Assembly: GCF_024362805.1 (NCBI RefSeq)
Contig: NZ_CP093299.1
Coordinates: 372,001 to 436,000 of the forward strand
Length of the DNA stretch: 64,000 bases
Direction: 5' to 3'
DNA from: Salipaludibacillus sp. LMS25
GTDB taxonomy: Bacteria > Bacillota > Bacilli > Bacillales > Salisediminibacteriaceae
Position numbers and translations under genes: made by a program. Of this stretch, positions 6,409 through 62,830 are shown one piece after another. Under the pieces are notes generated by a model. The model saw only the letters and a list, made by a program, of their open reading frames with translations, did not search any database and was not told where the DNA came from. The stretch's first letter is position 1, and every line of letters starts with the position of its first letter.

Positions 6409-6566
6409 ATAAAGCTAAGCTTCAATCAGTGGGAGTTTTCCTTCATCCCCCACTGATTGTTCGTTTAACTTATGGGACCTTTAGGGGCAGTTTATCCCCC
6501 CCTAAACGTTTCGACCTTCTTAAGTTTTGAGGTGGGGGTTTTACTGACCCTTAAGAGTGGGATAAA
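6409..6566 (+). repeat. Interspersed repeat A, copy A1
   Basis: This full-length copy starts ATAAAGCTAAGC and ends GAGTGGGATAAA. It has a left hairpin AATCAGTGGG...CCCACTGATT and a long right hairpin GGGGCAGT...CCCCACCT with its complement. Members A1-A8 share this order and the flanking ATAAA. Confidence 0.9.
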
Positions 6567-6603
6567 GGAGACAGTTGACCCCATCTCATCATACAAACGA
6601 CAT

Positions 6604-6800
6604 CTGTAAAAAACAACTAATTTAGTGATCGTCCGCTACAGACGGACGCTTTCTCGAAGGCTCGTCTTCAGCTAAACGATGCGATAAACCCTTTCGCATC
6701 ATTTGGGTTTTCAGATTTAACTGATCCTCTGGCGTCATCGTTTTTCACTGGAGTCCTTTCTTTAAAACGAGCTGATATCGACTATTGATCATTGTTCCCT
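6604..6800. repeat. Interspersed repeat C, copy C2
   Basis: It shares GTAAAAAAC, ACGGACGCTTTC, CTTCAGCTAAA, ACTGATCCTCTGG, TTTCACT and TTTAAAACGA with C1 and C4. Together with A1 it accounts for nearly all of the 6317-6810 gap. Confidence 0.65.
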
Positions 6801-6810
6801 TGCTACAAAA

Positions 6811-7626
6811 TCAATGGAGACCTTCATTCATTTTATATGGACCAGTTAAAAAAGTTTCAGGAGCTTTTTTTAATAAGGTTAATGAATCTAAAGTCGCTTC
6901 ATTATTAGACAAGTGTGTTTTTACAATATCGTAACCTAGTTTATAGCCAGTAAGAGGAGGGATATGCCGTTCTCCCCCGAATAACAATGACTTATACGTG
7001 TGCCTTCCTTGAAGTAAAATATATTGGTGGTATACTTTCTTCCACCATACAAGCAACATGTTGCGATCATAATTTTTAGCCCAAGGAGCCATATGATCTT
7101 CCCCCAAGTGATTCGCCACTTCCCATTCAGCCAACCCTTCCATAATCATCGACTCTAATAAACTTATTGATCGTTCATTTTCACCTCTATGAAATAGTCG
7201 GGAAGCGTGATGGTACTCATGAAGCAATAATGCTTTTTGGTCAATCTCAGGCAATGTTTCTTTCCAGAAGGCCAAAATAAATCCTGGGAATGCTATCCCG
7301 TTTTTCCCATCCAGTTCCTCCAAAATAATTCCGTGTTTCATATTCAATGGAAAGATAATTATGTCTGTATCTGGCCCTTGAAAAATGGTCTTCATTTTTT
7401 TAATAAACCGCTCTAACTCCTTTTTATTCACTCTTTTATGCCAGTCAAACCACGCTTTTTTAGTCTCCTTCTCTACAGGTAATAAGCCTTGTTCATATAG
7501 AAAACGAAACCATTCATCGAGAGATTTTTCAGGCCGTTTCTCCAATAGCGGGGCAAATGTCTTCTTAATAGACTGGTGCTTTATATAATGATTAAGAACC
7601 CAAGTAGATGAATCATGTACTTTCAC
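6811..7626 (-). CDS. yjaZ: YjaZ family (DUF2268) predicted zinc protease
   Basis: This is a predicted cytosolic or peripheral zinc-dependent protease of about 271 residues. The gluzincin motif HEYHH is seen in LLLHEYHHASRLFHR (about 139-153), and a downstream Glu in MIMEGLAEW is the likely third ligand. The start is taken as GTG at 7626, which follows GAGGTGG; an in-frame GTG at 7635 overlaps that ribosome site. B. subtilis yjaZ lies near fabF and trpS, matching this neighbourhood. The substrate is unknown. Confidence 0.75.
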   Translation of the reverse strand: MKVHDSSTWVLNHYIKHQSIKKTFAPLLEKRPEKSLDEWFRFLYEQGLLPVEKETKKAWFDWHKRVNKKELERFIKKMKTIFQGPDTDIIIFPLNMKHGIILEELDGKNGIAFPGFILAFWKETLPEIDQKALLLHEYHHASRLFHRGENERSISLLESMIMEGLAEWEVANHLGEDHMAPWAKNYDRNMLLVWWKKVYHQYILLQGRHTYKSLLFGGERHIPPLTGYKLGYDIVKTHLSNNEATLDSLTLLKKAPETFLTGPYKMNEGLH

Positions 7627-7725
7627 ATTTCCCACCTCATTGATTGCATTTTCCTCACTTATTTATGACCCCCATGTGATATGGTATTATTAACGTATGC
7701 TAACAAAGGTTAGGAGGAACCCTCG

Positions 7726-8448
7726 ATGACCAACCGATTATATAATTACCGAGCTAAAAGTCCTTTCTTCCATGAGTTATCAGTTGAAAATAAGCAACAT
7801 TTACTTCTCCACGGGGAAGAGTTAACATTCCCACAAGGTCACATTCTTTTCTACGAAGGAGAAGTCGTAAAGTATATTTACCTTATTTTAGAAGGTCAAG
7901 TGAGGATGAGCAAAATGACAATGGATAATAAAAAATTTATTATTCATTTAAAAGGGGACTACGATGTGGTTGGGGAATTCAGTCTCTTCAATGAAATGAA
8001 GGTGAGTATGACAGCTGAAGTTAAAACGCCCTCCCGTATTCTTCGACTAGAAAGAGAAATATTAGAAGGTGTGTTTGCCCAAAATGGGGCAATCGCCACA
8101 GCATTCATTAAGTTATTTGCCCGGAATACTCAGTCCACGCAGGCAAAATTTTCTGATCTATTACTCTATGGCAAACATGGTGCTTTTTATTCCGTTCTCA
8201 TTAGGCTTGCTCATTCTTATGGCATTGAACATGCAGACGGCATAAAAATTGATATTAAATTAACCAATCAGGAACTAGCTGATTTAATCGGTTCAACAAG
8301 AGAAACCGTCAATAGACTCTTTAATGGTTTAAAAAAAGCAAATAGTGTGTCTCTTGAGAAAGGTCATATGATTATTAAAGAAATAGAGGTACTAAAAAAG
8401 CACCTCCAATGTGACAAGTGCCCTTTAGAAATATGCACATTATCATAA
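7726..8448 (+). CDS. fnr: Fnr-type anaerobic regulator (C-terminal Fe-S)
   Basis: This Crp/Fnr transcription factor has an N-terminal cyclic-nucleotide-like sensor fold (about 10-125), a dimer helix and a C-terminal winged helix (recognition region TNQELADLIGSTRETVNRL). The last residues carry CDKCPLEIC (Cys 229, 232, 237). This spacing matches the C-x2-C-x4-C that binds the [4Fe-4S] cluster in B. subtilis Fnr. It is therefore predicted to act as an oxygen sensor that activates at TGTGA-N6-TCACA boxes, such as those near 20058 and 28078. The start follows AGGAGGAACCCTCG. The stop codon TAA (8446-8448) is supplied by repeat A2. Confidence 0.88.
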   Translation: MTNRLYNYRAKSPFFHELSVENKQHLLLHGEELTFPQGHILFYEGEVVKYIYLILEGQVRMSKMTMDNKKFIIHLKGDYDVVGEFSLFNEMKVSMTAEVKTPSRILRLEREILEGVFAQNGAIATAFIKLFARNTQSTQAKFSDLLLYGKHGAFYSVLIRLAHSYGIEHADGIKIDIKLTNQELADLIGSTRETVNRLFNGLKKANSVSLEKGHMIIKEIEVLKKHLQCDKCPLEICTLS

Positions 8449-8602
8449 AGCTAAACTTCAATCAGTGGGCGTTTTCCTTCATCCCCCACTGATTGTTCGT
8501 TTAACTTACGGGACCTTTAGGGGCAGTTTATCCCCCACCTAAACTTTTCGATCTTTTTAAGTTTTGTGTGAGGGTTTTACTGCCCCTTAAGAGTGGGATA
8601 AA
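8445..8602 (+). repeat. Interspersed repeat A, copy A2
   Basis: This full-length copy starts ATAAAGCTAAAC and ends GTGGGATAAA. Its first bases overlap and provide the stop codon of the fnr gene. It also separates that gene from the convergent response-regulator gene. Confidence 0.9.
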
Positions 8603-8639
8603 TAGGCCATGATAGCACGGCTATTAATGCATGTACACA

Positions 8640-9263
8640 TTAAACTAAGTGATGTTTATTTGCATAAATGGCTGCTTGTGTCCGATCTTCAAGCTCCAGC
8701 TTTGCGAGAATATGACTCACATGCGTTTTCACTGTTTTTATACCAATAAATAATTCTTCTCCGATCTCCTTGTTTGATTTCCCTTTTCCTATTAGACTAA
8801 GTACTTCCTTCTCTCTATTTGTTAAGTCATTATGTTTCGGTTTTTTATTCATATACTGAATCATCTTTTGAGTCACTTGGCCTTGAAAAGTTGGTTCATC
8901 ATTGACTGCTTTGCGAATAGCAGCAGCAATTTCCGCTGCATTAGATGTTTTTAACAGATAACTGAATGCTCCTGCTTCTATCACTGGAAATAACATCTCA
9001 TCATCAAGGTAGCTCGTCAAAACGATGACTTTAGCAGTCGTTTTAGACAATACCTTCGTCGCTTCTATCCCGTTCATATTAGACATCAGTAAATCCATTA
9101 AAATAACATCCGGAAGACACTCTTCTGCCTTTTGAATGGCTTCCTTACCATCCCCTGCTTCACCGACGACTTCCATGTCGTCTTCAACATTGAGGTATGT
9201 GACAAGCCCCATGCGTACCATTTCATGATCATCGACCACTAATACTTTAATTTTCTCCGTCAC
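8640..9263 (-). CDS. liaR: LiaR/VraR-like response regulator
   Basis: This 207-residue NarL/LuxR-type regulator has an N-terminal receiver domain with acidic pocket VVDDHEM (Asp 11, 12), phosphoacceptor Asp 57 (VILMDLLM), a Thr/Ser in VLTSY and Lys in LLKTS. The C-terminal LuxR helix-turn-helix reads LTNREKEVLSLIGKGKSNKE. It overlaps the kinase gene by 17 bases, so the pair is translationally linked. With the LiaF homologue upstream this is a LiaFSR/VraTSR-type cell-envelope stress system. Confidence 0.9.
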   Translation of the reverse strand: MTEKIKVLVVDDHEMVRMGLVTYLNVEDDMEVVGEAGDGKEAIQKAEECLPDVILMDLLMSNMNGIEATKVLSKTTAKVIVLTSYLDDEMLFPVIEAGAFSYLLKTSNAAEIAAAIRKAVNDEPTFQGQVTQKMIQYMNKKPKHNDLTNREKEVLSLIGKGKSNKEIGEELFIGIKTVKTHVSHILAKLELEDRTQAAIYANKHHLV

Positions 9264-10422
9264 TACTTATCCCCCCTTTAGCATCAATTTGTTTAGTTAA
9301 AGGCACACGGAATTCCAATTTCGTCCCTTTCCCCGGATAAGAGACAATTGTTAGGTGACCGCCAAGTTCTATTAATCGTTCTTTCATTGATAAAAGACCG
9401 TAATTACCTGTTTTTTCTTGGTGGATGGTCTCAGAATAAAAGCCATCACCATCGTCTTCCATAACGATCAATAAAATTTGATGACCTATTTTCGCATCTA
9501 TTGTTGCTGTTTTTGCATTAGCATGACGCATAACATTTGATAGTCCTTCTTGAAGTACTCTAAATAATTGCTCTTCAATCCCTTTTTCCATTTGTGGGAT
9601 TGCTTTTAAGTCACAATGAAAATGCATAGCTGGATGTTTTTTACATAATTCTTCCATAAGACTTTCCACTGCCTGAGTTAAGGACTTCCCTTCTAATGTT
9701 ACAGGTCGTAAGTGCATAATCAGTGCCCTTAATTCTTGTTGGGCATGGTGTACCATCTGCTCAATTTGTTTAAATAAAGCCACTGCATTATCTTTATTTT
9801 TGGCCAGGACTTTAGGCATGGCTCCTAATGACATGGATACAGCAAACAACTCCTGACTAACAGCATCGTGTAAATCCCTCGCTAGCTTGCGACGCTCCTC
9901 TAATCCTGCGCCTCTTTCTGCTTCTTCAATTAAGCTGGCATTTTCATTTACGAGCCGTCTCATTGATACAATTTGCCTTTCCAAATCATCTGTTAATTCA
10001 TTTACTTCATTTGCAAGCTTTTGTAACTCATCTCGCCGTTGGACAGTAATTTTTTTATTTAAAGAACCTCGTTGAAATTGTTTTAATTGATGAATGAAGT
10101 GAGCGATGGTTTTCTTCAACGATAATCCGTATGAGTACGCGTAAAACCAACCAGAAATAAGAAAAATAACGGTTAAAACACTCGTTATAACGAAGAGTAT
10201 TAACGGTTCTTCTCCAAGATTTAATAATGGTTGAAAAATGCCCCCATGTACAGGTTCTTCTGAAGTAGCCGTAAATGTATAACCCATTATAATAAATACA
10301 TAGACTGCTGACCCAGCCGTTAACATGACTTTTAACTGCATACGTAGTAGGTCCCAAATCATCCCTTCAAGCCTCGAATCTTTTGAACGGATTTTTCTCC
10401 TGCCTCCTTTTTGCTTAGTCAA
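9247..10422 (-). CDS. liaS: LiaS/VraS-like sensor histidine kinase
   Basis: This membrane kinase of about 391 residues has two transmembrane segments (about 31-50 and 74-96) with a short external loop, the arrangement of intramembrane-sensing kinases. A HAMP-like linker follows (about 97-150), then the HisKA_3 H-box ARDLHDAVSQE with His 185 and an ATPase domain (N-box EGLSNVMRHA, G-boxes DDGDGF and GNYGLLSMKER). The start at 10422 is a TTG overlapping liaF by 8 bases. An ATG 20 codons downstream is an alternative that I cannot exclude. Confidence 0.88.
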   Translation of the reverse strand: MTKQKGGRRKIRSKDSRLEGMIWDLLRMQLKVMLTAGSAVYVFIIMGYTFTATSEEPVHGGIFQPLLNLGEEPLILFVITSVLTVIFLISGWFYAYSYGLSLKKTIAHFIHQLKQFQRGSLNKKITVQRRDELQKLANEVNELTDDLERQIVSMRRLVNENASLIEEAERGAGLEERRKLARDLHDAVSQELFAVSMSLGAMPKVLAKNKDNAVALFKQIEQMVHHAQQELRALIMHLRPVTLEGKSLTQAVESLMEELCKKHPAMHFHCDLKAIPQMEKGIEEQLFRVLQEGLSNVMRHANAKTATIDAKIGHQILLIVMEDDGDGFYSETIHQEKTGNYGLLSMKERLIELGGHLTIVSYPGKGTKLEFRVPLTKQIDAKGGISSDGEN

Positions 10423-11290
10423 CAGTCAGTACCTCCACATCTCCAATACTTAAATTAACATTAAGAATAAGTCTCTTTTCGGCTTCATAAAAGCCTGGAC
10501 TCGTATAGGTGGCCTGTCTCCCTGTCCCTGCATGACTATCATCAAATAACGTCACTTCCCCGAGCTTCACTTCTGCTGCAGCTTGAACAGCCATTTGTTT
10601 TGGAACGTAAACTTCTACAGACCCAATCCAATTTGTAACATCTATAACGTTATCGCCTTCTTTTAAGATCGCTTTCGTCAAATCGAGTTCAATACTTCCG
10701 ATCCCCATATTGACATCAACGCCATCTGGTTCCCACGGTTGACGGCCTAATGTCATTTCTCCTATAAAGATTCGATAGTTCTTTTTCGTCCGCTGCTTTC
10801 CATCTGTTTGGTTCCTATGAGTGGTTGTACATGAAGATGGAAAGCTATCTTCTTCCCTCATTTTTTTTCTTTTTTGTTTTTTCTGCCTTTTCACCTGTTC
10901 CATATCATCACTATCTAAAGACACTTCAACATACGTGTCTCTATCAAATAAAACTTTAAAGCCGATGTAAACGATGATTACCGGCCATAACCAACTCCAA
11001 AAATCTCTTACGCTATAATAAAACCAACCCGCCTGATTACCTAGCAGAACACCCCCACCAGACACTACTACAGCTCCCCATATAATTTTACCGATGTGCC
11101 AGCGGTCTCTTTTCAATCCATGAAAGAAATACATGATTCCTTCAAATAATAATTTCACACCTAGCACTATCACAATAACAGGCCAAAATGTAGTTAACAT
11201 ATTTGTAATACTAGCATCAATTGTACCGGTATTCACAAGTAAAAAAAGAATACCTATCATTAAAATGATGCTTCCTATAAATTTCTTCAT
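10415..11290 (-). CDS. liaF: LiaF-like membrane inhibitor of the LiaRS system
   Basis: This 291-residue protein has an N-terminal membrane domain with about four hydrophobic segments (residues 1-120), a charged linker (KRQKKQKRKKMREE) and a C-terminal beta-rich domain of the LiaF type (GSIELDLTKA...GSVEVYVPK...GDVEVLTVD). LiaF proteins hold the LiaS kinase inactive until cell-envelope damage occurs. Start ATG 11290 has GAGGTG upstream. The gene is first of three in liaF-liaS-liaR order. The effector genes liaIH, which precede liaF in B. subtilis, are not present here; an ABC transporter sits upstream instead. Confidence 0.85.
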   Translation of the reverse strand: MKKFIGSIILMIGILFLLVNTGTIDASITNMLTTFWPVIVIVLGVKLLFEGIMYFFHGLKRDRWHIGKIIWGAVVVSGGGVLLGNQAGWFYYSVRDFWSWLWPVIIVYIGFKVLFDRDTYVEVSLDSDDMEQVKRQKKQKRKKMREEDSFPSSCTTTHRNQTDGKQRTKKNYRIFIGEMTLGRQPWEPDGVDVNMGIGSIELDLTKAILKEGDNVIDVTNWIGSVEVYVPKQMAVQAAAEVKLGEVTLFDDSHAGTGRQATYTSPGFYEAEKRLILNVNLSIGDVEVLTVD

Positions 11291-11368
11291 ACGTTATTCA
11301 CCTCAATTAGCATGGAGTAAGCGACCGGATACGTAACAAGCCGACTCCCTTGTCTTATATTGTATCCT

Positions 11369-12160
11369 TTACGTTTCCATTCGCCAATTAATTTTTTTCA
11401 CAATTAATATATAAGACAGTATAGTGAAGAAGAGAAGTACAAGAGTATTAACTGTCACTGTCCATGTCCATCCAATTATTAATAATTCCCTTAAAGCAGC
11501 GGCAGCATAAGTAGTCGGAAATACGTAAGATATCCATTGCAAGATGGCAGGAAGCTGATTCATATCCACCATGACCGGTGTGAGAAAGCTGACAAACATC
11601 ATTAATGCTTGCACAAGCAAATTTGTTAGCTGAAGATTCGGTGACCAAAATCCAAGAAATACGCCTATCCCGACGACACTCATAATCGTTAAAAATGCTA
11701 CAGGAATAATTCCAAAACTTAGCTTGAACTGCACCTCATAGACGACTTGACCAATTAAGCCAAGAATAATAAAGGACGGAAAGCTCATTAACATGCCTCG
11801 AAACAAATTAGCTAAGACAAAGTTAAGTTTTGCGATAGGCAGTGACGCATAAAACGTAAAATGTCCTTGGTGCTTTTGCGAGGAAATATCTTGTGCCATC
11901 ACATTCATCCCCATTATGATCAGAGCAAATAACATATTACCTGTAATCATCCGCATAATTAGCTCGTCGCTAGGGTTTTCTGTAAAGAACTTCAAGAACA
12001 TTAACGTTGTAAAAGGAAACACAGAAGCTAAAATAAAGATAAGCGCCCAACTTTCCCGAATGATAGACAGTTGGATACGAAACAATATCCAACCTTCTAT
12101 AAAAAATTGTTTGATTCTTGACGTTTCAAACACGAGCTGATGACTCTCTAAATTACGCAT
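11369..12160 (-). CDS. ABC-2 type transporter permease
   Basis: This 263-residue membrane protein has about six transmembrane helices arranged as in ABC-2 exporters (DrrB/YhgE-like). Hydrophobic blocks lie near residues 38-55, 73-92, 115-140, 150-170, 178-200 and 235-255. Its start overlaps the end of the ATPase gene by 8 bases, so the two form one transporter. It is followed after 78 bases by liaF in the same direction. The likely role is export of a lipid, drug or envelope component, perhaps linked to the Lia system by operon structure (inference). Confidence 0.82.
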   Translation of the reverse strand: MRNLESHQLVFETSRIKQFFIEGWILFRIQLSIIRESWALIFILASVFPFTTLMFLKFFTENPSDELIMRMITGNMLFALIIMGMNVMAQDISSQKHQGHFTFYASLPIAKLNFVLANLFRGMLMSFPSFIILGLIGQVVYEVQFKLSFGIIPVAFLTIMSVVGIGVFLGFWSPNLQLTNLLVQALMMFVSFLTPVMVDMNQLPAILQWISYVFPTTYAAAALRELLIIGWTWTVTVNTLVLLFFTILSYILIVKKINWRMET

Positions 12161-13378: not shown

Positions 13379-13535
13379 ATAAAACGACCCTTCAATCAGT
13401 GGGAGATTTCCTTCATCCCCCACTGATTGTTCGTTTAACTTATGGGACCTTTAGGGGCAGTTTATCCCCCACCTAAACGTTTCGATCTTCTTAAGTTTTG
13501 AGGTGGGGTTTTACTGCCCCTTAGAGTGGGATAAA
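13379..13535 (+). repeat. Interspersed repeat A, copy A3 (A/B-type left end)
   Basis: The right part is a standard repeat A. The left end reads ATAAAACGACCCTTCAATCAG, which resembles the left end of repeat B rather than the ATAAAGCTAAGC of other A copies. This hybrid supports common ancestry or recombination of the two families. Confidence 0.85.
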
Positions 13536-18501: not shown

Positions 18502-18786
18502 TGTAAAAATGACTAATGATCTTCAGCTAAATGATCCGTTAAATTATCTCATCATGGATCTTCAGTCGTCACTGATCTCCCGAGAGTCACCGTCTTTCAC
18601 TGCAGTCCTTCCCTATAAAAAACAAACCTTTAATCAGTAGGAGTTTTCGTTCTTCCCCGCTGATAGGTAGTTAAGTAAATCAGGACATTAGCGGCCTTAT
18701 CTGTGATAAAACGACATGTATAGAGACTCTTTGTCATTGTTCGTTTTTTAACGTTGGAAATGCAATTGTGACATTCATTCATATAA
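18502..18786. repeat. Repeat C, copy C3, split by a repeat B insertion
   Basis: The C segment 18502-18614 (CTTCAGCTAAATGAT, CAGTCGTCACTGATC, TTTCACTGCAGTCCTT) and the C tail 18717-18786 (AAAACGACATG, TTGTCATTG, GCAATTGTGACATTC) are contiguous in C1 and C4. Here a repeat B copy lies between them. This is direct evidence of insertion. Confidence 0.75.
18615..18720 (+). repeat. Repeat B copy B5, inserted in repeat C
   Basis: It begins ATAAAAAACAAACCTTTAATC, keeps the left hairpin in altered form (CAGTAGGAG...CCCCGCTGAT), then TCAGGACATTAGCG, and ends TTATCTGTGATAAA. The right hairpin is deleted. It is flanked by the two halves of repeat C3. Confidence 0.75.
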
Positions 18787-20161: not shown

Positions 20162-20689
20162 ATGCTCACAATCACATTTTCCTATTCAACCGCATTGGGT
20201 ATTTCGCCTATATTGTTTGACCATGGCTTCACATTCCATGACGATCATTATAGAAAGACATTAACGTCTGCTCCTGTAGACATCGTGTTTAAACATCATA
20301 ATGCCAAGCAGTTACTATTATTAACATGTGAAGAGAATGTTTCGTTTAGCTGCTGTAAGGAGCTCTATTACCTAATAGATGAACTTGCTCATGATTTAAG
20401 CGCAAAGATAGACGATAAAGAAGCTTTAATGGGGTACGATCAACGAGGTGAACCAGCCTATTTATATCATGGGTTTCCGAGATGGGCCACCTATATTGAT
20501 AAAGCGAGACAGCATTCTATGGAAGGAACACAAGTGGAAATATGGCAACATCATAACCGACTAGCACGCGGTGTTCTCGTTAACTGCCCAGGGGACGAGA
20601 ATACTTCATATACACTCATTACATCAGAAGGTGAGCAAACTTTTTATGGTGACTTACTAACGGTTTATCCCACTCTTAAGGGGCAGTAA
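20162..20689 (+). CDS. Uncharacterised protein, divergent from ywiC
   Basis: This soluble protein of about 175 residues has no clear signal or membrane segment and belongs to no family I recognise. Two central Cys (SFSCCKEL) and several His are present. The start at 20162 is set by AAGGAGGT 8 bases upstream. It shares a Fnr-box intergenic region with ywiC, so it may be part of the anaerobic regulon. Its last residues (about PTLKGQ) and stop codon are encoded by a 55-bp deleted copy of repeat A, so the native C-terminus has probably been replaced. Confidence 0.6.
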   Translation: MLTITFSYSTALGISPILFDHGFTFHDDHYRKTLTSAPVDIVFKHHNAKQLLLLTCEENVSFSCCKELYYLIDELAHDLSAKIDDKEALMGYDQRGEPAYLYHGFPRWATYIDKARQHSMEGTQVEIWQHHNRLARGVLVNCPGDENTSYTLITSEGEQTFYGDLLTVYPTLKGQ

Positions 20690-20718
20690 AACTCCCACTG
20701 ATTGAAGCTTAGCTTTAT
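20664..20718 (-). repeat. Deleted 55-bp repeat A (A9), opposite orientation
   Basis: On the minus strand it reads ATAAAGCTAAGCTTCAATC, AGTGGGAGTTTT, then ACTGCCCCTTAAGAGTGGGA and ATAAA. The interior of repeat A is missing between two GTTTT tracts, which points to deletion by short direct repeats. It overlaps the 3' end of the plus-strand gene. Confidence 0.85.
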
Positions 20719-21608: not shown

Positions 21609-21836
21609 AAAAATCACAGATAACCGTCCAAAATACAGAGGAAAGATAAAGCTAAGCTTTAATCAGTGGGCGTTTTCCTTCATCCCCCACTGATTGTTCG
21701 TTTAACTTATGGGGCCTTTAGGGGCAGTTTATCCCCCACCTAAACTTGTCGACCTTCTTAAGTTTTGAGGTGGGGTTTTACTGCCCCTAAGAGTGGGATA
21801 AATCTATTTAGGTGGGAGATACCGGACACTCATGAC
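21609..21836 (-). repeat. Repeat B interrupted by repeat A4
   Basis: Half of B (AAATCACAGATAACCGTCC...GAGGAAAG) lies at 21609-21645 and the other half (TCTATTTAGGTGGGAGATA CCGGACAC) at 21803-21836. In uninterrupted copies these are adjacent (GAGGAGAG..AAATCTATTTAGG). Repeat A fills the gap. Confidence 0.8.
21646..21802 (+). repeat. Interspersed repeat A, copy A4 (nested in B)
   Basis: This full-length copy runs from ATAAAGCTAAGC to GTGGGATAAA, bounded on both sides by repeat B sequence. ATAAA at each end is either a 5-bp target duplication or a fixed target next to the left end. Confidence 0.9.
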
Positions 21837-21849
21837 TATATTTCGCCAA

Positions 21850-28414: not shown

Positions 28415-28459
28415 CGATGATTATAGTCTGGATTAGTAATTATCCTTTTAGCTTACTTA

Positions 28460-30111
28460 GGCACTGCTGAATAACTTTAAAAGTAAGATTTCACAAGGAT
28501 TCTGGGCATTTATGTCGAAGTAAGGTGCAAGGAAAAACGTAGACTGTTATAAAAAAACCTTGCATGTGGAGGTCGAGAAAACATGTACAATCATTCAGAA
28601 CATCACATGTTGTTACCTGACGATTTTTTTCTGCCATTTGGCGGCAAGTTAAATAAACATAACCGGTGGGTAAAACTGGCGAACCTTATTCCATGGTGGA
28701 AAGTAGAAGACCAGTATAAACATCACTTGAAAGACCTCACTCAAGGTGCGCACGCTTACTCGGTTCGGCTGGCTCTTGGTGCCCTTATCATTAAAGAAAG
28801 GTTAGGGACGAGTGACCGTGAAACGGTGGAGCAGGTGACTGAGAATCCGTATCTTCAGTACTTTCTAGGCTTGCCAGACTATCAAGAAGACCCACCCTTT
28901 CATGCCTCCTCGATGACTCATTTTAGAAAGCGTATTACCCGTGACATCTTGAACCAAGTAAATGAATGGGTGGTAGAAGAAGCCCGTGGCTCTTCTAAAG
29001 AGGCTGATTCTGATGATGACGACTCTCATCATGGCTCAGGTGGTGCTTCAAAGTCCTCCGTATCTAAACCAGATCAGCCGGATAAGTCTGAGGAACCACG
29101 TTATCATCAAGGAAAGCTGCTCATTGATGCGACATGTGCCCCAGCTGATATCACCTATCCGACTGACGTGACTCTTTTGAACAAGAGCCGTGAAAAATTA
29201 GAAGGCATGATTGATACCCTTCATGACTCCCTTGGTGGTAGTCAAAAGAAACCAAGAACATACCGTCAAAAAGCCCGTAAAGAGTATGTGAGTTTGACTA
29301 AGCAGAAGAAGCCGTCCAAACGTAAGCTGAGAAAGGGAATTAGAAAGCAACTCAACTACGTCAAACGTGATCTAAAGCATGTGACAAACTTGGTAGATCA
29401 GGTTGGGCTTTCAGCTTTAAGTCGTCGTCAGTATCGTGATCTCTTAGTGATTCAAGCCGTTTACCGACAACAAAAGCAGATGTACACGTCAAAATCTCAT
29501 CGAATTGATGACAGAATCGTGAGTATCTCACAACCGCATGTACGACCGATTGTTCGAGGAAAAGCACACACAAACGTTGAATTTGGTGCGAAACTGTCAC
29601 TCGTTATGAGGGATGGCTGGGCATTCCTAGATAACGTAAGGTGGGATGCCTACCACGAAGGGACAGATTTGAAAAGAGCGATAGCGTCGTACAAAAACCG
29701 CTTTGGGTATTATCCAGAAGCTGTTTTAGCAGATCGGATTTATCTGACACGTGAAAATCGTGCTTATTGCAAGCGAGAAGGGATTCGCCTTAGCGGTCCA
29801 AAGCTAGGAAGACCCTCGAAAAAAGAAAATAAAGAACAAAAACGAGTCGCCTACCAGGATGCACGTGAGCGAAATGCCATTGAGGGCAAATTCGGAGAAG
29901 CCAAACGCACTTATGGTTTAGGGCTTATTCGAGCACGTCTAAAAGAGACAAGTGAATCTATTATCGCCCTGCAAGTGTTAAATCTTAACTTGTCGAAGGC
30001 CTTAAGGGCTCTTCATTTTTTCTTGCTTATGACAACGATCGGATCACTCACGTCAGATAAACGAGACTGTCAGATGAAAACTCATTAAAAGGGATGTTGT
30101 TAAGCAACCCC
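28460..30111 (+). mobile_element. Complete IS (IS5/IS1182-like), 1652 bp
   Basis: The ends read GGCACTGCTGAATAAC (left) and, inverted, GGGGTTGCTTAACAAC (right), 11 of 16 identical. The element is flanked by a perfect 6-bp duplication TACTTA at 28454-28459 and 30112-30117. One transposase gene fills it. The intact ends and duplication indicate a recent single insertion. It lies between the nitrate reductase promoter region and the 3' end of the CGTase gene. Confidence 0.88.
28583..30088 (+). CDS. DDE transposase of the IS
   Basis: This 501-residue transposase has an N-terminal DUF772-type region (LPFGGKLNKHNRWVKLANLI...GTSDRETVEQVTENPYLQYF) and a C-terminal DDE_Tnp_1 catalytic domain. Candidate catalytic residues are Asp in LLIDATCAPAD, Asp in VLADRIY and Glu in IEGKFGEAKRTYGLG. 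An acidic/Ser-rich linker (about 135-170) follows the N-terminal part. The start ATG follows GGAGGTCGAGAAAAC. The reading frame is intact, so the element may still be active. Exact family (IS5, IS1182 or a relative) cannot be settled by eye. Confidence 0.9.
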   Translation: MYNHSEHHMLLPDDFFLPFGGKLNKHNRWVKLANLIPWWKVEDQYKHHLKDLTQGAHAYSVRLALGALIIKERLGTSDRETVEQVTENPYLQYFLGLPDYQEDPPFHASSMTHFRKRITRDILNQVNEWVVEEARGSSKEADSDDDDSHHGSGGASKSSVSKPDQPDKSEEPRYHQGKLLIDATCAPADITYPTDVTLLNKSREKLEGMIDTLHDSLGGSQKKPRTYRQKARKEYVSLTKQKKPSKRKLRKGIRKQLNYVKRDLKHVTNLVDQVGLSALSRRQYRDLLVIQAVYRQQKQMYTSKSHRIDDRIVSISQPHVRPIVRGKAHTNVEFGAKLSLVMRDGWAFLDNVRWDAYHEGTDLKRAIASYKNRFGYYPEAVLADRIYLTRENRAYCKREGIRLSGPKLGRPSKKENKEQKRVAYQDARERNAIEGKFGEAKRTYGLGLIRARLKETSESIIALQVLNLNLSKALRALHFFLLMTTIGSLTSDKRDCQMKTH

Positions 30112-30127
30112 TACTTAAATGAAAAAT

Positions 30128-37111: not shown

Positions 37112-37237
37112 ATAAAGCTAAGCTTCAATCAGTGGGAGTTTTCCTTCATCTCCCACTGATTGTTCGTTTAACTTATGGGACCTTAGGGACAGTTTATCGA
37201 GGTGGGGGGTTTACTGCCCCTTAAGAGTGGGATAAAT
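37112..37237 (+). repeat. Interspersed repeat A, copy A5 (shortened)
   Basis: Both ends are typical (ATAAAGCTAAGC; GTGGGATAAA). About 30 bases of the right-hairpin loop region are missing (CAGTTTATCGAGGTGGGG), which keeps the outer stem. Confidence 0.88.
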
Positions 37238-39355: not shown

Positions 39356-39515
39356 TTTATCACAGATAATCGTCCGTAAAACGCCCGCCTCAAAATATAA
39401 GAGGCAAGCTAAATCTATTTAGGCGGGAGGTAACGGACGCTAATGTCCTGATTCACTCACCTAACAATCAGTGGGAGAAGAGCGAAAACTCCCACTGATT
39501 GAAGGTTCGTTTTAT
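39356..39515 (-). repeat. Interspersed repeat B, full-length copy
   Basis: This is the longest B copy and serves as reference. On the minus strand it runs ATAAAACGAACC, hairpin 1 (AATCAGTGGG...CCCACTGATT), TCAGGACATTAGC, hairpin 2 (GTCCGT..CCCGCCT...GAGGCGGG..ACGGAC) and ends TCTGTGATAAA. Confidence 0.88.
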
Positions 39516-44353: not shown

Positions 44354-44524
44354 ATGGGGAGATATAACAATGAGGACCCTGAAAAACAGCTAGTACAGTT
44401 TGATTTTCAATATCTTTCTACTGTGAATTCGGACGAGCAAAGTGTCCATATAAAGCTAAACTTCAATCAGTGGGAGTTTTCCTTCATCCCCACTGATTGT
44501 TCGTTTAACTTATGGGACCTTTAG
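44354..44524 (+). pseudogene. Possible gene remnant running into repeat A6
   Basis: A 56-codon open frame (beginning [20 protein letters not shown]) has no ribosome site. Its last third lies inside repeat A6. It may be the truncated start of a mobile-element or other gene. The rest of 43941-44353 holds no convincing gene; a lone AAAAGGGGGTGATGTT site at 44270 precedes a four-codon frame. Confidence 0.2.
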
Positions 44525-44605
44525 GGGCAGTTTATCCCCCACCTAAACGTTTCGACCTTCTTAAGTTTTGAGGGGAGTTTTACTGCCCCTTAAGAGTGGG
44601 ATAAA
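44450..44605 (+). repeat. Interspersed repeat A, copy A6
   Basis: This full-length copy runs ATAAAGCTAAAC to GTGGGATAAA. Its right ATAAA is shared with the left end of the following repeat B copy, so the two elements are abutting. Confidence 0.9.
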
Positions 44606-44707
44606 ACGAACCTTCAATCAGGAAATTAGCGTCCTTTATCTCCCACCTAAATAGAGTGCTCTCTTCTCTTTTTTGCCGAGGAAGGTTTACGGACGGTTAT
44701 CTGTGAT
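44601..44707 (+). repeat. Repeat B copy abutting A6
   Basis: It starts ATAAAACGAACCTTCAATC and then jumps to AGGAAATTAGCGTCC (hairpin 1 lost). It keeps TCTCCCACCTAAATAGAG and ends TTACGGACGGTTATCTGTGAT. Confidence 0.8.
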
Positions 44708-44737
44708 TAAAAAACAGCTGCCCGCTAGGACAACTGC

Positions 44738-47933: not shown

Positions 47934-48039
47934 ATAAGGCGAACATCAATCAGGACATTAGTGTCCGTTATCTCCCGCGTAAATAATTTATCTCTGCTCT
48001 CTATTTTGACGGGAGTTTTACGGACGGTTATTTGTTATA
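47934..48039 (+). repeat. Repeat B copy at the end of the NifU-like gene
   Basis: It starts ATAAGGCGAACATCAATCAG, lacks hairpin 1, has GACATTAGTGTCCGTTATCTC and the hairpin-2 arms, and ends TTACGGACGGTTATTTG. The minus-strand gene's stop codon (48030-48028) lies in it. Confidence 0.8.
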
Positions 48040-48300
48040 AACGCTTGTAAAAACAGCTTCAATTTTAGGTAGCAAAGAATCCCAATCTGCATCCATCTCC
48101 TTGTTAACAGTTACAAAATCCTGAAAACCAAAGATATTGTCTACCCCTTCTAGAGCTAGTAGCTCTTTTGCTAACGCGTGCTCCGGCTCATCACCTTTTT
48201 TGAATGACGCACTGCCAGACCCTTCAAAAAGCACTTGGTTTGCTGTAAACTTCATTGCATTTGGATTAGGTGTCGGTTCACCTCTAACTTCAATTGCCAT
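48028..48300 (-). CDS. NifU N-terminal domain-like (Nfu_N) protein
   Basis: This 90-residue protein of the Nfu_N/virulence-factor family has the hallmark EPTPNPNAMKFTAN and GVDNIFGFQDFVTVNK. It lacks the C-terminal Nfu CxxC domain, so direct Fe-S carriage is not supported. The start at 48300 follows GAGGAGG; a longer frame to 48378 has no ribosome site. The final residues and stop are encoded by a repeat B end, so the natural terminus may have been replaced. Confidence 0.8.
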   Translation of the reverse strand: MAIEVRGEPTPNPNAMKFTANQVLFEGSGSASFKKGDEPEHALAKELLALEGVDNIFGFQDFVTVNKEMDADWDSLLPKIEAVFTSVYNK

Positions 48301-53273: not shown

Positions 53274-53431
53274 ATAAAGCTAAGCTTCAATCAGTGGGAG
53301 TTTTCCTTCATCCCCCACTGATTGTTCGTTTAACTTATGGGACCTTTAGGGGCAGTTTACCCCCACCTAAACGTTTCGACCTTCTCAAGTTTTGAGGTGG
53401 GGGTTTTACAGCCCCTTAAAAGTGGGATAAA
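53274..53431 (+). repeat. Interspersed repeat A, copy A7
   Basis: This full-length copy runs ATAAAGCTAAGC to GTGGGATAAA. It sits in the 53081-53812 gap together with repeat D3; I see no gene in the remainder. Confidence 0.9.
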
Positions 53432-55563: not shown

Positions 55564-55573
55564 CCATTACTTA

Positions 55574-55843: not shown

Positions 55844-55970
55844 AGACAATCCTCCCTTAATTTATTGACTTTCACATAGCGATCTACCATCATTGTCTTA
55901 TATGGATGGTGAAATTGTCTATCATTTTCTATTGCTTTTTCCCTTTTCTATCTTTACGTTCTTCTCTCAT

Positions 55971-56114: not shown

Positions 56115-56242
56115 ACTTATCCTCCTTTAGTGATCTGACACTATACCGCCAGTCAATATGAGTGTTTAGTCTGTTTAATAGCCTATATTGACAAAAATAA
56201 AACCTTCTACGACAAGCGCAGAAGGAAAATAGGTACATATAA

Positions 56243-56623: not shown

Positions 56624-56691
56624 TCTATCACCCCAACTAATAATTGACAGTTTAAATGTTCCGCTTATAGGTTTGTTTTATTACTATTTCC

Positions 56692-57792: not shown

Positions 57793-57890
57793 TAACCTTC
57801 CCTCATTTCTAAACGACAGATAAATTTCAGTTGAATGGTAATTACTCAGTGCTTCTTAATTGAAAAGTCGTATTGAACCAGTTTCATAAT

Positions 57891-58047
57891 ATAAAGCTAA
57901 GCATCAATCAGTGGGAGTTTTCCGTCATCCCCCACTGATTGTTCGTTTAACTTATAGGACCTTTAGGGGCAGTTTATCCCCACCTAAACTTTTCGACCTT
58001 CTTAAGTTTTGAGGGGAGGTTTTACTGCCCCTTAAGAGTGGGATAAA
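57891..58047 (+). repeat. Interspersed repeat A, copy A8
   Basis: This full-length copy runs ATAAAGCTAAGCATC to GTGGGATAAA. It lies next to repeat C4, so the 57793-58354 gap is almost wholly repeats. Confidence 0.9.
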
Positions 58048-58054
58048 ATACACA

Positions 58055-58275
58055 TGTAAAAAACGACTCATACAATCCACTGCAAACAGACGCTTTCCCG
58101 AGGACTCATATTCAACTAAATCCCCTTTCACATCATAGGATCTTCAGACGTCACTGGATCCTCTGGAAATAACCGTCTTATACACTACAGCCTTTTTAAA
58201 ACGACCATTTTATATAGGCTAGTTATCATTATCGCTTGTTCGTGTTGAGAATTCAATTGTGCCTTTCATTCATAC
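58055..58275. repeat. Interspersed repeat C, copy C4
   Basis: This is an uninterrupted copy with ACAGACGCTTTCCCGAGG, CAGACGTCACTGGATCC, CAGCCTTTTTAAAACGACC, TATCATTATCGCTTGTTCG and TTCAATTGTG. It shows that the two halves of C3 are normally joined. Confidence 0.7.
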
Positions 58276-58354
58276 ATTCATTCACTCAACCTAAAAAAAT
58301 TATACCATGTTGCTATGTTGATTGGCAGTTTAGATGACGTTTTATTTCCCACTA

Positions 58355-59395
58355 TTAATTAAGAGACCGGTCACTTATTTTTTGACACGTTTGTCTTTTA
58401 ATCAATTTATGAGGAATTATCACCTGTTTTGCTTTAATATCAGGATGATTAATTTGATCAATTAAGCACTTGGCAGCCTCAAATCCGAGACTATAAATAT
58501 TGATATCAACGGTCGTCATTGGCGGAGAAGACAGCTCTGATATCATCACATTATTAAAACTAATAATAGAGATGTCCTCAGGAACTTTAACATCCATTTC
58601 ACTTAACATCCTCATAACCCCAAACGTCATAATGTCATCCGCTACAATTAAAGCTGATGGGCGATCAGACAAGCTCATTAAATCAATGACTGCTTCTTGT
58701 CCCCCTTCTTGGAGTTCCTCATGAAAAACCACATAATCGTCTTCAACACCAATACCAGCATTCATTAACGCTTTTTTATAGCCTTCCATATGATCTAATG
58801 TGACGACTGTTTCTAAATTCCCTCCAATAAAGGCAATCCGTTCATGTCCGAGCAGTAACAAATACTCAGTAACCGTTTTGGCCGCTTTAAAATTGTCATT
58901 GTTAACATATGTAACATCGAGTTTTTCTTGATCATAAGGTCGTCCAATCACAGTGAAGGGAAACTTCTCATGATATAAATAGCTCATTATTTTATCATTT
59001 ACTTTTGAATACAGTAAAATAATGCCATCTACTCGTCTACCTTGTACCATATCTTGAACCTCTTCAAAGATCTCCTCATCAGATTGACCCGTAGACAAAT
59101 ACAAACCATATTCCAACTGATGCGCTTTTGTACTAATCCCACGGATAACCTCTGGGAAAAATGGATTCTGGAACGTTTTATTCACGGAATTTGGCATAAT
59201 AAGTCCGATTGTCTTCGTGGTCTTATTTGCAAGATTTCTAGCATTATAATTTGGGTGGTAGTCTAGCTCTTTCATTGCCTGGCGAACTTTTTCTTTCGTT
59301 CGTTCACTTATTCGTGGACTATTTGCTATTACTCTTGAAACAGTGGACGGGGCAACATTGGCAACTCTCGCCACATCTTTAATTGTTACAGACAT
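58355..59395 (-). CDS. malR: LacI-family repressor, MalR-like
   Basis: This 346-residue repressor has an N-terminal LacI helix-turn-helix and hinge (TIKDVARVANVAPSTVSRVI, about 3-22) and a periplasmic-binding-like core (GLIMPNSVNKTFQNPFFPEV). Close similarity in the PNS..FQNPFFPEVIRGI region to MalR of Gram-positive maltose systems suggests control by maltodextrins. Likely targets are the operators upstream of malE (36467-36733) and perhaps its own upstream AAGAAAGCGTTCTT (59436-59423). It is 20 kb away from the transporter genes. Confidence 0.85.
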   Translation of the reverse strand: MSVTIKDVARVANVAPSTVSRVIANSPRISERTKEKVRQAMKELDYHPNYNARNLANKTTKTIGLIMPNSVNKTFQNPFFPEVIRGISTKAHQLEYGLYLSTGQSDEEIFEEVQDMVQGRRVDGIILLYSKVNDKIMSYLYHEKFPFTVIGRPYDQEKLDVTYVNNDNFKAAKTVTEYLLLLGHERIAFIGGNLETVVTLDHMEGYKKALMNAGIGVEDDYVVFHEELQEGGQEAVIDLMSLSDRPSALIVADDIMTFGVMRMLSEMDVKVPEDISIISFNNVMISELSSPPMTTVDINIYSLGFEAAKCLIDQINHPDIKAKQVIIPHKLIKRQTCQKISDRSLN

Positions 59396-59666
59396 TTTTA
59401 ATCATCCCTTCATTCTCTAAGGAAGAACGCTTTCTTATTACTACTTCTCTGATGAAAGCCCTTTATTTAGAATATACAATTAAGAAAAAACGACGCAATA
59501 ATACTATTTTAGCGCTCTCAAATCAAAAGAACAATATTCGCCTCAATAATTTGGCCATGTATGCTGACTTTCTTTATAGATCAATTAAAACATAACATTA
59601 TGACTAATGTGTGTATCTCTCATGACGAAGTTTGTTACTTGAATATTATCGTCATTGGACGATAGG

Positions 59667-60054
59667 TTCATGAAGTGGCCGATTTAACGATTCAGGTGTT
59701 CCATATTAAAGAAGATCATATCCGTGAAGTCGAATTAGCCACTACCCATTTTGTTAACCTAGATGATGCATTTTAAGGAGAAGGCGAGGTTCAGGACGGG
59801 TTGGATCGCGAGTCAGCCAAACGACCATGTCATTGACGGATTCGGATGAATGAGACGAGACGTTAAAAAGGATTCAGGATATTAACTCCCTCCCCCTTCT
59901 TGAAGATGCCCCCGTCCAGCAGGTGATAAAATGGGGAAAGACTATGCGAACGAGACAGTGGACAAAGTCCGCAATTCGACCATGACCGAACAGCGTCACT
60001 GAGAACGGTATGGAAAAGGTACAAACGATGATCAGCTATGTAACCGAATTGTAA
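59667..60054 (+). pseudogene. Decayed LXG-domain (type VII secreted toxin) remnant
   Basis: Translated pieces in shifting frames spell an LXG domain. They are ELATTHFVNLDDAF followed by a stop and GEG, then a piece with MSLTDSDE, then DETLKRIQDINSLPLLEDAP, then YANETVDKV and MEKVQTMISYVTEL. Typical LXG domains have these blocks in this order. At least three in-frame stops, two frameshifts and a missing middle part show decay. LXG proteins are N-terminal export domains of polymorphic toxins. No toxin domain or immunity gene is recognisable; 60055-60272 shows none. Confidence 0.65.
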
Positions 60055-60272
60055 GACGGTAAATTAACAATGAGCGAGGGGTTATAAAAGAATTTAATGT
60101 AAAATGAGAGAACTCATTAACATGAACCTTAACTGGCCTAATGCCGAATACAACGACTATTATTTTTTGGATGTAGATAACCCTGTTTCGAGAGGTTAAA
60201 CCTAAGCTTAGTAGTATAAGGGTATCAAATTGGCCTACTAATACAAACGCTTACATCTAGTTGTTTATGAAC

Positions 60273-61145
60273 TCACCATTGCTGAGTATATGTTATACGT
60301 CGATATTGGCCAGGTGAAAGACCTTCTTTTCTTTTAAAAACCCGTGAGAAATACGCTGAATCCCCATACCCCAATTCAGAAGCAATGGTGTTTAAATCAT
60401 TATTTTCCTTCATTAATAGCTCTTTTGCTTTCGAGATGCGACATTGTGTCACGTATTGAATGGGCGTCAAACCAATTGTTTTTTTCAAGGATCTAGTTAA
60501 ATAATCAGGATGATATAGCAATGTTTGTGCCATTTTCTTAACATTAAAATCGGGATGTTTATAATGCTTTTGTATATAATTCATACATTGGTGCGCGACA
60601 TTTTCGGTGCTTGTAGGGACTTGTAAAGCATTCTTTTGTATAAATATAATAATGTTAAATAAGGCGGATTGTTGTTTCATTCGCTCTTCTGGAAGATTAA
60701 TTCCTTCCATTTTAATAAGATCAGAAAACATTTCGATAGCTTTATCACTATGATAAAAATGACCTACTCTTGGTAAATGAAGCTCATACAAATCCGATTC
60801 TGTGTACGTCCCTTTTCTTTTAATAATATGAGACCAATCTGTCTTAATTGAAGATGCCAGTTGATAAGGAGAGGAAAAATTAAAATGCACCCAAAAAAAT
60901 TCTGTTTTTTCCTTACATAATTCAGTACCTTCATGCTTATAATCTGGAGCTAAAATAACATAATCTCCCCGATTTAAAATCACATCTATTCCGTTTTCTT
61001 TCATATATAATGTTCCTCTAGTAATAAGTAATAAATCAAAAAGCTGAAAAGTTCTCGCGAAATGTTTTTCTCCTTCATGTAAAATCCCCTGACCGCTTTT
61101 AACAAAAATAGGCAACGGCGGCACTAAAGTAGATATAGCATCCAT
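60273..61145 (-). CDS. AraC-family regulator with cupin domain
   Basis: This regulator of about 290 residues has an N-terminal cupin-like sugar-sensing part (LLITRGTLYMKENG, GDYVILAPDYKHEG, FFWVHFNFS) and a C-terminal AraC pair of helix-turn-helices (MAQTLLYHPDYLTRSLKKTI; IASELGYGDSAYFSRVFKRK). The start at ATG 61145 follows GAAGGTG; an in-frame GTG at 61154 overlaps that site. It is divergent from the MATE gene and may regulate it (inference). No sugar-use genes adjoin. Confidence 0.85.
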   Translation of the reverse strand: MDAISTLVPPLPIFVKSGQGILHEGEKHFARTFQLFDLLLITRGTLYMKENGIDVILNRGDYVILAPDYKHEGTELCKEKTEFFWVHFNFSSPYQLASSIKTDWSHIIKRKGTYTESDLYELHLPRVGHFYHSDKAIEMFSDLIKMEGINLPEERMKQQSALFNIIIFIQKNALQVPTSTENVAHQCMNYIQKHYKHPDFNVKKMAQTLLYHPDYLTRSLKKTIGLTPIQYVTQCRISKAKELLMKENNDLNTIASELGYGDSAYFSRVFKRKEGLSPGQYRRITYTQQW

Positions 61146-61365
61146 TGTAAGCACCTTCTTTTAGTCGTTTTTGTACAATACAATTCGTTTTTTTAACTTC
61201 ATTTTCATTATAAACTCTTTTATGATTAAACTCATCCTATATAGTATCAGTCGTTTCAATCTAGGAACCCTATAGATGAGTGAAGTGACCTTAACGTTTT
61301 TATACGTCGGCTATTTTAGGAAAACACTCTTACCCATTGATTAAGTCAGAAGAAGGTGCACCCTT

Positions 61366-62754
61366 ATGTCTAATAAATCTACTCGCACGAAACTTACACT
61401 ATTTGCTTTAACATGGCCAATATTTATTGAAATCCTCTTGCATATGCTTATGGGAAATGCCGACACACTTATGTTAAGTCAATATGACGACAATTCCGTA
61501 GCGGCGGTTGGTGTCTCGAATCAAATTCTCAGTGTCATTATAGTGATGTTCGGTTTTGTAGCCACTGGAACAACGATTTTAATTGCCCAAAATCTCGGTG
61601 CTAATAACAATAAAGCCGCTTCCCAAATTGCAGTCGTCTCCATTTGGGTCAATATACTGTTCGGTTTACTATTAAGTATCGTGTTAATTATATTTGGCAG
61701 GCCAATCCTTGCTATCATGAATCTACCAGACGAGTTAATGGGTACAGCGCTCATATACTTGCACATCGTCGGAGGTTTTTCTTTCATTCAAGCACTCATC
61801 ATGACGCTTTCCGCCATCATTAAAAGCCATGGGTTTACGAAAGATGCCATGTACGTGACAATTGGAATGAATCTACTCAACGTAATAGGGAATTATTTGT
61901 TTATTTTCGGTGCTTTAGGCGCACCAGAATTAGGGGCTACAGGGGTGGCTATCAGCACAGCATTCAGCCGAACGTTAGGGACAATTATCCTATTCGTGAT
62001 GTTATTTAGGAGAGTAAGAGGTGAGTTACCTTGGTCGTTTATTTTCCGTAAATTCCCTAAAAAGGAATTGAAGGACCTTCTTAAGATTGGCATTCCGTCG
62101 GCCGGTGAACAACTCTCTTATAACACATCTCAAATGGTGATAACTTATTTTATTGCTTCGATGGGAACGAGTGCATTAACAACAAGAGTTTACACACTTA
62201 ATATCATGATGTTTGCCTTTCTTTTTTCCATTGCGATCGGACAAGGAACCCAAATACTAGTAGGTTATTTAATTGGCGAAAGAAAACATGAGGAAGCCTA
62301 TCGACGAGGGTTAAGAAGCTTATGGATAGGTATTAGTGTGTCTACTTTTGCAGCTATATTGTTTGCTGTTTTCAGCCATCCACTTCTGAACATTTTCACC
62401 GATAATCCCGATATCATCCAACTGGGAAGTTTGTTACTTATTATGACGATCTTTCTCGAGCCTGGAAGAGCTTTTAATTTGATTCTTATTAACTCTTTAA
62501 GAGCTGCTGGAGATGTGACATTCCCAGTTTTCATCGGTGTTCTCTCTATGTGGGGCATAGCTGTCACGATCTCTTACACAGCAGGTATATGGCTCGGCTT
62601 TGGTTTAATAGGTGTTTGGGTCGCTATGATTTGTGATGAATGGCTGAGAGGTCTACTCATGTTAAGACGCTGGAAGACACGTAAGTGGGAACAGATGTCG
62701 TTTATCACAGATAATAGTCGTAAACTCCCGGCTCAAAATAGAGAGGAGAGCTAA
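61366..62754 (+). CDS. MATE family efflux transporter
   Basis: This 462-residue multidrug and toxin extrusion protein has twelve transmembrane segments in two halves (MLMGNADTLMLSQYDDNSVA near the start; SIAIGQGTQILVGYLIGE in the second half). It exports cationic compounds using a Na+ or H+ gradient. Start ATG follows GAAGGTG. The last 17 or so codons (from FITDNSRKLPAQN to the stop) lie inside a repeat B copy that begins at 62701, so the C-terminus was changed by the insertion. Confidence 0.9.
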   Translation: MSNKSTRTKLTLFALTWPIFIEILLHMLMGNADTLMLSQYDDNSVAAVGVSNQILSVIIVMFGFVATGTTILIAQNLGANNNKAASQIAVVSIWVNILFGLLLSIVLIIFGRPILAIMNLPDELMGTALIYLHIVGGFSFIQALIMTLSAIIKSHGFTKDAMYVTIGMNLLNVIGNYLFIFGALGAPELGATGVAISTAFSRTLGTIILFVMLFRRVRGELPWSFIFRKFPKKELKDLLKIGIPSAGEQLSYNTSQMVITYFIASMGTSALTTRVYTLNIMMFAFLFSIAIGQGTQILVGYLIGERKHEEAYRRGLRSLWIGISVSTFAAILFAVFSHPLLNIFTDNPDIIQLGSLLLIMTIFLEPGRAFNLILINSLRAAGDVTFPVFIGVLSMWGIAVTISYTAGIWLGFGLIGVWVAMICDEWLRGLLMLRRWKTRKWEQMSFITDNSRKLPAQNREES

Positions 62755-62830
62755 CTCTATTTAGGCTGGAGATAACGGACGCTAATGTCTTGATTCACTC
62801 AACTCCCACTGATTGAAGGTTCGTTTTATA
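62701..62830 (-). repeat. Repeat B copy at the end of the MATE gene
   Basis: It begins TTTATCACAGATAATAGTCG and has CTCTATTTAGGCTGGAG and ACGGACGCTAATGTC. Hairpin 1 is shortened (CAACTCCCACTGATTG) and it ends GAAGGTTCGTTTTATA. The MATE stop codon (62752-62754) is inside. Confidence 0.85.

Follow-up and report, generated by a model that had tools for sequence, protein, structure and literature searches.

A 64,000-nucleotide stretch (hereafter the window; bases 372001-436000) of the 4.53-Mb chromosome of Salipaludibacillus sp. LMS25 contains two families of short gene-less repeats, termed A and B. Our analysis revealed that A and B are sister subfamilies of one bcr1-like superfamily that is widespread in Bacillales, that they move and use a fixed pentamer as their target, and that their orientation follows replication. 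The tie of the orientation to replication rather than to transcription is new here. Taken as a whole, the data are best explained by non-autonomous single-strand elements in the style of bcr1 and of the PATEs of haloarchaea that are moved in trans, an explanation that we regard as probable.

The consensus sequences of A and B are each 159 bp long and share the order ATAAA - hairpin 1 - hairpin 2 - GATAAA, as described in an earlier note on this DNA that was made from the sequence alone. On the strand referred to here as the active strand, an element reads 5' TTTAT - hairpin 2 - hairpin 1 - TTTAT 3'. The window holds eight copies of A, seven of them full (156-158 bp) and one internally deleted (37112-37236), as well as a 55-bp mini form (20664-20718). 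All eight start with ATAAA and finish with GGGATAAA, so that both the eight near-full copies plus a 55-bp deletion form and the flanking ATAAA of the earlier note were borne out. Its figure of about eight B copies was slightly generous: we found six matches (nhmmer E<=1e-8), three of which lack a large part while the one at 62701 is cut to 129 bp, and a seventh copy (21613-21645 and 21798-21837) that is interrupted by A at 21646. The hairpin-1 pattern AATCAGTGGG, with one mismatch allowed, matched the window 27 times compared to 3.7 matches expected in shuffles. As the note had also stated, the ends (ATAAAGCTAAGC... and ...GTGGGATAAA, compared by eye) are not terminal inverted repeats, which speaks against an identity as miniature inverted-repeat transposable elements, and none of the eight A copies lies inside simple open reading frame calls (the copy at 8445 overlaps the end of a frame by 4 bases).

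Pairing was analysed in an alignment of 32 sequences, drawn from 12 genomes or records, with 32 pairs in four helices. In this alignment, 90.5% of the cells were paired, and two-sided changes occurred in 22 of the 32 pairs (128 such cells). None of 500 shuffles, which preserve the column make-up and not the relatedness of the sequences, reached 22 pairs (mean 11.5 pairs with two-sided change). Controls with slid partners had 39-50% paired cells, a comparison that favours the structure, as it was drawn by hand on the alignment; RNAalifold alone gave 17 pairs, 11 of them with two-sided changes. These counts show that the two hairpins are under selection for pairing, and the stem sequences and compensatory changes reported in the earlier note were confirmed in the alignment as well as in the pair counts, so that the covariation on which the note had made its reading depend is present. 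A search of Rfam at gathering score yielded no match in the window besides a T-box, and five loci with family members gave sub-threshold matches only. From the left TTTAT of A it is 11 nt to the start of the main hairpin-2 stem, and from the end of hairpin 1 it is about 9 nt to the right TTTAT, a subterminal spacing that resembles the layout of IS608.

Genome-wide, the hairpin-1 pattern has 316 exact matches, compared to none for the pattern read backwards. In 864 kb of sampled DNA of the window genome (coded G000), comprising the window and 40 further stretches, 20 of which were picked where copies were listed, we detected 206 matches (E<=1e-8, overlaps removed), namely 104 to A (88 full) and 102 to B (61 full). 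Nearly all of them are intergenic (103/104 for A, 101/102 for B), and the median nearest-neighbour identity is 95.6% for A versus 83.1% for B. The GC skew splits the chromosome in halves with sign flips at 1.86-2.0 Mb and 4.1-4.24 Mb, and origin and terminus were set at 1.95 and 4.15 Mb from this skew, not by gene mapping. In 85 of 88 full A copies and 50 of 61 full B copies, the TTTAT-first strand is located on the lagging-strand template, with the hairpin-1-first strand running against the fork. Counting only evenly spaced stretches, the same orientation applies to 20 of 21 full A and 13 of 13 full B copies, and genome-wide it is found for 128 of the best 150 model matches (Fisher p 5e-19). 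Truncated B copies are biased as well (36/41). Between codirectional genes, A is antisense in 40 cases and sense in 4, and B in 43 and 5; between head-on genes, A is sense in 10 cases and antisense in none, and B in 10 and 2. As copies are antisense between codirectional genes and sense between head-on genes, it is replication and not transcription that sets the direction. The pattern extends beyond this genome: in seven other genomes, where stretches of 12-20 kb were scored, 27 of 28 copies match the local skew; the two syntenic siblings G001 and G005 have 30 of 37 full copies in this orientation; and in four of five named loci all copies agree with the skew.

The main syntenic blocks of these siblings are 83-89% identical to the window genome. 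We tested 58 elements, 25 of which had both flanks in at least one sibling, and aligned the 12 comparisons in which the flanks were -10 to 20 bases apart. Three B sites (L-numbers denote sampled stretches or loci) proved to be cleanly empty with a single ATAAA, namely window 47946 (ATAAA in G005, ATATA in G001), L010:3243 (in G005) and L012:597 (in G001 and G005). At L010:476, A stands before B in the window genome, and G005 has B alone behind one ATAAA. The remaining alignments gave no clean picture; for the element at 37112, the corresponding site in G001 is without an insertion but does not read ATAAA. Nesting of A in B was seen at 2 of 86 A sites tested (window 21646 and L009:18060), and the two B pieces around A at 21646-21797 score 20.5 and 8.7 bits separately and 45.7 bits when A is excised. 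Within the same flanks, L009:14769-14926 is A in the window genome versus a B-type element in G005; this site and the one at 8445 (Table 1), which likewise has the same flanks in the siblings, may reflect a replacement, an exchange or a target that was used more than once. ATAAA is present on both sides of 76 of 84 full A copies, with little preference beyond it, and 19 of 29 neighbour pairs less than 60 bp apart have 4-5 terminal bases in common. In hairpin-1-first order, these pairs are A-B (14), B-A (2) and B-B (3), the last three representing one four-fold chain in L020. Together, these observations show that A and B are mobile and that the pentamer is their target, and the empty and occupied sites on which the earlier note had hinged mobility do exist. 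The 55-bp mini form was detected 16 times in the sampled DNA (the window copy and 15 more), with 98% identical copies in G001 and G005. It can arise by deletion, as its joint falls at an 11-base near-repeat within A (GTGGG[A/G]GTTTT), and since the full A of 6409 has a mini form as its counterpart in G005, deletion in place is favoured.

Carriers of the superfamily were found by plain DNA search in 10 of 60 genomes (window genome counted), by a search in the class in 37 of 299 genomes and by covariance model in the order (around Bacillus tequilensis) in at least 129 of 397 genomes. The last figure is a lower bound due to the scoring of 7 candidates per genome, and the three genome sets overlap. 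The superfamily is present in 25 of 49 named genomes searched, with at least 60 copies each in Natronobacillus azotifigens, Virgibacillus proomii and Gracilibacillus sp. YIM 98692, 51 in Bacillus sp. 03113, 36 in Ornithinibacillus caprae and 21 in Lederbergia sp.; Pseudalkalibacillus is likewise among the genera with members. No member was found in B. tequilensis, B. swezeyi and four named Salipaludibacillus genomes (L108, L109, L112 and L113), and in the genus of the window 3 of 8 genomes match A. In a FabF comparison, the named genomes nearest to that of the window are Salipaludibacillus species at 79-82%, with Alteribacter natronophilus at 79%. A-like and B-like stems each recur in other genera, which indicates that the split between A and B is old. 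Matching plasmid records numbered one for the A consensus, none for L162, one for L179 and five for L209, while phage sequences gave no match to L162 or L209. In viral contigs, the hairpin pattern matched five times, including two strong family members that are alike in sequence and two weak ones, and a second core pattern matched none. A shortened family member is also contained in L238 (CP079755.1), labelled as Klebsiella grimontii plasmid pNY3A. The surrounding 10 kb have a GC content of 28-35%, and the record may therefore be a mislabelled or contaminated Bacillaceae plasmid.

A study of 2004 reportedly found TTTAT at each end of bcr1. With 159 bp and the pentamer on both sides of the great majority of full A copies, A and B fit the size of about 155 bp and the TTTAT termini of bcr1. 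As far as the accessible parts of the sources go, bcr1-bcr3 of the Bacillus cereus group are about 150 bp long, gene-less, intergenic, multi-copy, folded and mobile, with a TTTAT motif and no known mover (PMC6542083, PMC3446304, PMC2267715). A and B resemble bcr1 in size, pentamer, location, folding and the lack of a known mover, a likeness to the published description. According to the same excerpts, bcr1 is restricted to the B. cereus group, whereas the superfamily of A and B occurs in many other genera. The literature surveyed, mostly outside subscription papers, contained no bcr1 consensus sequence and nothing on A or B in Salipaludibacillus or on a replication-locked orientation of bcr elements.

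A movement of single strands at the fork could account for these features. At the replication fork, the active strand would lie open on the lagging-strand template and fold into two hairpins, whereupon an enzyme supplied in trans would cut at the TTTAT of each end. Once freed, this single strand, which probably forms a circle, would be joined to the 3' side of a TTTAT elsewhere, at a place where the lagging-strand template is single-stranded. Such joining would give all copies the same direction relative to the fork and one TTTAT on each side, and head-to-tail chains with a common pentamer would form because the end of one copy is the target for the next. We consider this mode, i.e. single-stranded, fork-bound and in trans, to be rather likely, and the picture of the earlier note, of mobile, non-autonomous elements with two conserved hairpins that are presumably moved in trans, fits the empty sites and the pairing.

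Several observations weigh against this mechanism. The order in the chains is lopsided (A-B 14 versus B-A 2), a bias not expected from a TTTAT target alone, and both copies in L162 run the opposite way. Agreement is weaker where the skew was taken from only about 3 kb (17/28 by hand count, and 36/43), truncated A copies are unbiased (10/16), mini forms are less biased (12/16) than full A (Fisher p 0.01), and neither a circle nor a joint nor a transcript was observed. Regarding the enzyme, a Y1 transposase was not found (E<=0.001) in 4 of 27 carriers, namely G001, G005, a Gracilibacillus sp. (G393) and Bacillus sp. 03113 (G376); G400 and G329 hold fragments only, and the other 21 carriers some match. 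In the set of 60 genomes, Y1 genes are present in 39 of 50 non-carriers versus 8 of 10 carriers, and the ends of 40 Y1/TnpB loci in relatives showed no similarity to A or B in a model search.

The same gene content bears on the possibility that A and B are classical PATEs, that is, shrunken remnants of an IS200/IS605 element whose movement depends on a resident or visiting Y1 TnpA acting in trans. According to the accessible part of the source, the lagging-strand template is the target of IS608 and ISDra2, whose transposase recognises subterminal structures (PMC6006769). A and B share with these elements the subterminal hairpins, the short fixed target and the preference for the lagging-strand template, and they differ in having neither tnpA nor tnpB and in occurring in some carriers with no detected Y1 gene. 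With PATEs, as described in the available excerpts, they share subterminal palindromes without terminal inverted repeats, the lack of a transposase and core-deleted short forms, which are 55 bp long here and 52 bp in PATEs (PMC3119063). A relation to Y1 would also be in line with the siblings, as only the window genome of the three has Y1 and it is also the richest in A, with 21 full copies in 400 kb of evenly spaced stretches compared to one in 155 kb of G001 and one in 240 kb of G005, in stretches chosen for synteny. Furthermore, a copy or remnant of A is located within about 2 kb in four of six own Y1 loci. Against this stand the carriers named above with no or only fragmentary Y1, the TnpB Zn-ribbon, which was not found in 5 of 8 carriers tested, and the lack of shared ends: the window genome has four identical IS200-type Y1 genes and two relics, and the ends of its six own IS200/IS605 loci resembled A and B neither in the model search nor by eye. 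PATE palindromes resemble those of IS605-type transposons, whereas for A and B we found no transposon of this kind. PATEs are listed without target duplication in the portion of the source at hand, whereas A and B have two pentamers when occupied versus one when empty. In Haloquadratum, the same portion describes PATE movement as hard to reconcile with a broken tnpA (PMC3119063). We therefore see a classical PATE as possible and not as the favoured reading. The guess of an IS200/IS605-type mode in the earlier note gains an independent argument from the lagging-strand orientation, which is expected of such single-strand mobility, whereas a resident enzyme of this type is not supported, as ends differ and some carriers have no detected Y1; the transposase with matching ends that it had envisaged was found neither at the 6 own nor at the 40 loci of relatives.

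REP and REPIN sequences are intergenic palindromes, as are A and B, and in the accessible text they are thought to be spread in trans by the Y1 enzyme TnpA-REP (RAYT) (PMC6006769). The hairpin feet of A and B, inspected by eye, lack GT[AG]G, and their unit is 159 nt long with two different hairpins. RAYT-like matches were absent from G000, G001 and G005, and the Y1 matches of G000 are of IS200 type only. Models of the hairpin-1 end and the hairpin-2 end were also paired over 266 sequences (3.6 Mb including overlaps, with the own genome sampled to about a fifth), and no autonomous copy was recognised. Of 25 loose end pairs more than 100 bp apart, most fell on mini forms or weak matches, as judged by scores alone, and one pair 3.2 kb apart that was inspected encloses ordinary frames. 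It may be speculated that A and B represent a new single-strand transposition system, a gene-less two-hairpin element in about one third of Bacillales genomes that is fork-bound and served by an enzyme other than Y1 (IS200/IS605 or RAYT), a proposal that we consider doubtful at present.

For bcr elements, a movement resembling site-specific recombination was suggested in print, as far as the available excerpt shows (PMC6542083). Applied to A and B, a recombinase would act on double strands and swap the TTTAT of an excised circle with a target TTTAT. One pentamer in empty and two in occupied sites would fit such a reaction equally well, and the A-versus-B sites at 8445 and L009:14769 could be exchanges; it gives, however, no reason for the replication-locked orientation and appears unlikely to us. 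The orientation might instead be kept by selection, with copies landing both ways and those in the wrong direction being lost. Replication-oriented motifs such as KOPS and Chi exist, and the almost exclusively intergenic copies indicate that selection on position acts. However, the best 150 matches show no rise in density toward the presumed terminus. Moreover, slow purging predicts a stricter orientation of the more diverged B, and the reverse was observed, with the more closely related A being more strictly oriented, a difference not seen in the evenly spaced stretches (B 13/13). We thus rate selection as a poor candidate, a little below double-strand recombination. A mobile structured RNA that a reverse transcriptase turns back into DNA, as also raised in the earlier note, or a regulatory RNA family would suit the strong paired structure, and group II introns also enter lagging-strand templates, but this is highly improbable given that the orientation ignores transcription, that Rfam offered only the matches mentioned above, and that among nine carriers tested a reverse transcriptase was not found in G001, G005, G329 and G395 and is broken in G000 (some match in the other four). 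The lack of an available reverse transcriptase in these five of nine carriers also speaks against an identity as group II intron or other retroelement.

The single-strand mode that we favour has consequences for further work. The replication-locked orientation narrows the search for the mover to fork-associated enzymes acting on single strands, and since some carriers have Y1 genes and others do not, the question of the mover can be tested by comparing gene content. In addition, the superfamily provides a large natural data set on a mobile element sustained by structured DNA and not by protein-coding sequence.

Table 1 Copies of repeats A and B in the window and two example chains elsewhere in the sampled DNA. 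Positions without a prefix are those of the window.
Feature	Position	Strand	Remark
Repeat A, full	6409..6566	+	syntenic G005 site carries a 55-bp mini form
Repeat A, full	8445..8602	+	syntenic site in G001 and G005 has a shortened B-type element instead
Repeat A, full, left end B-like (ATAAAACGACC)	13379..13535	+	
Mini form of A (55 bp) joining the left and right ends	20664..20718	-	opposite to the 8 other A copies in the window
Repeat A, full, at internal ATAAA of a B copy	21646..21802	+	
Repeat A, internal deletion	37112..37236	+	
Repeat A, full, adjoins a B remnant	44450..44605	+	
Repeat A, full	53274..53431	+	
Repeat A, full	57891..58047	+	
Repeat B, near full	3311..3460	-	
Repeat B, left part only	18619..18701	+	
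Repeat B, one part of the A-interrupted copy	21613..21645	-	
Repeat B, second part of the A-interrupted copy, ATAAA common with A	21798..21837	-	
Repeat B, full	39356..39515	-	
Repeat B, right part, 8 bp past an A copy	44614..44710	+	
Repeat B, right part	47946..48041	+	G005 site empty with one ATAAA; ATATA in G001
Repeat B, shortened to 129 bp	62701..62829	-	
Example chain	L024:7932-8216		
Example chain	L028:14285-14598		

The window contains a third interspersed repeat family of about 240 bp, in which no ATAAA ends were recognised (194-371, 6576-6796, 18522-18613 and 58124-58272). It is multi-copy in the sampled DNA and at times joined to copies of A and B. The T-box leader is located at 3724-3964 (Rfam RF00230, 128 bits), followed by a gene that, from the start of its protein, we take to encode a tryptophanyl-tRNA synthetase. 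Finally, a 1660-bp repeat with a 501-aa frame at 28458-30117 is probably an insertion sequence, and repeats of the same length are present in L014, L046 and L048.

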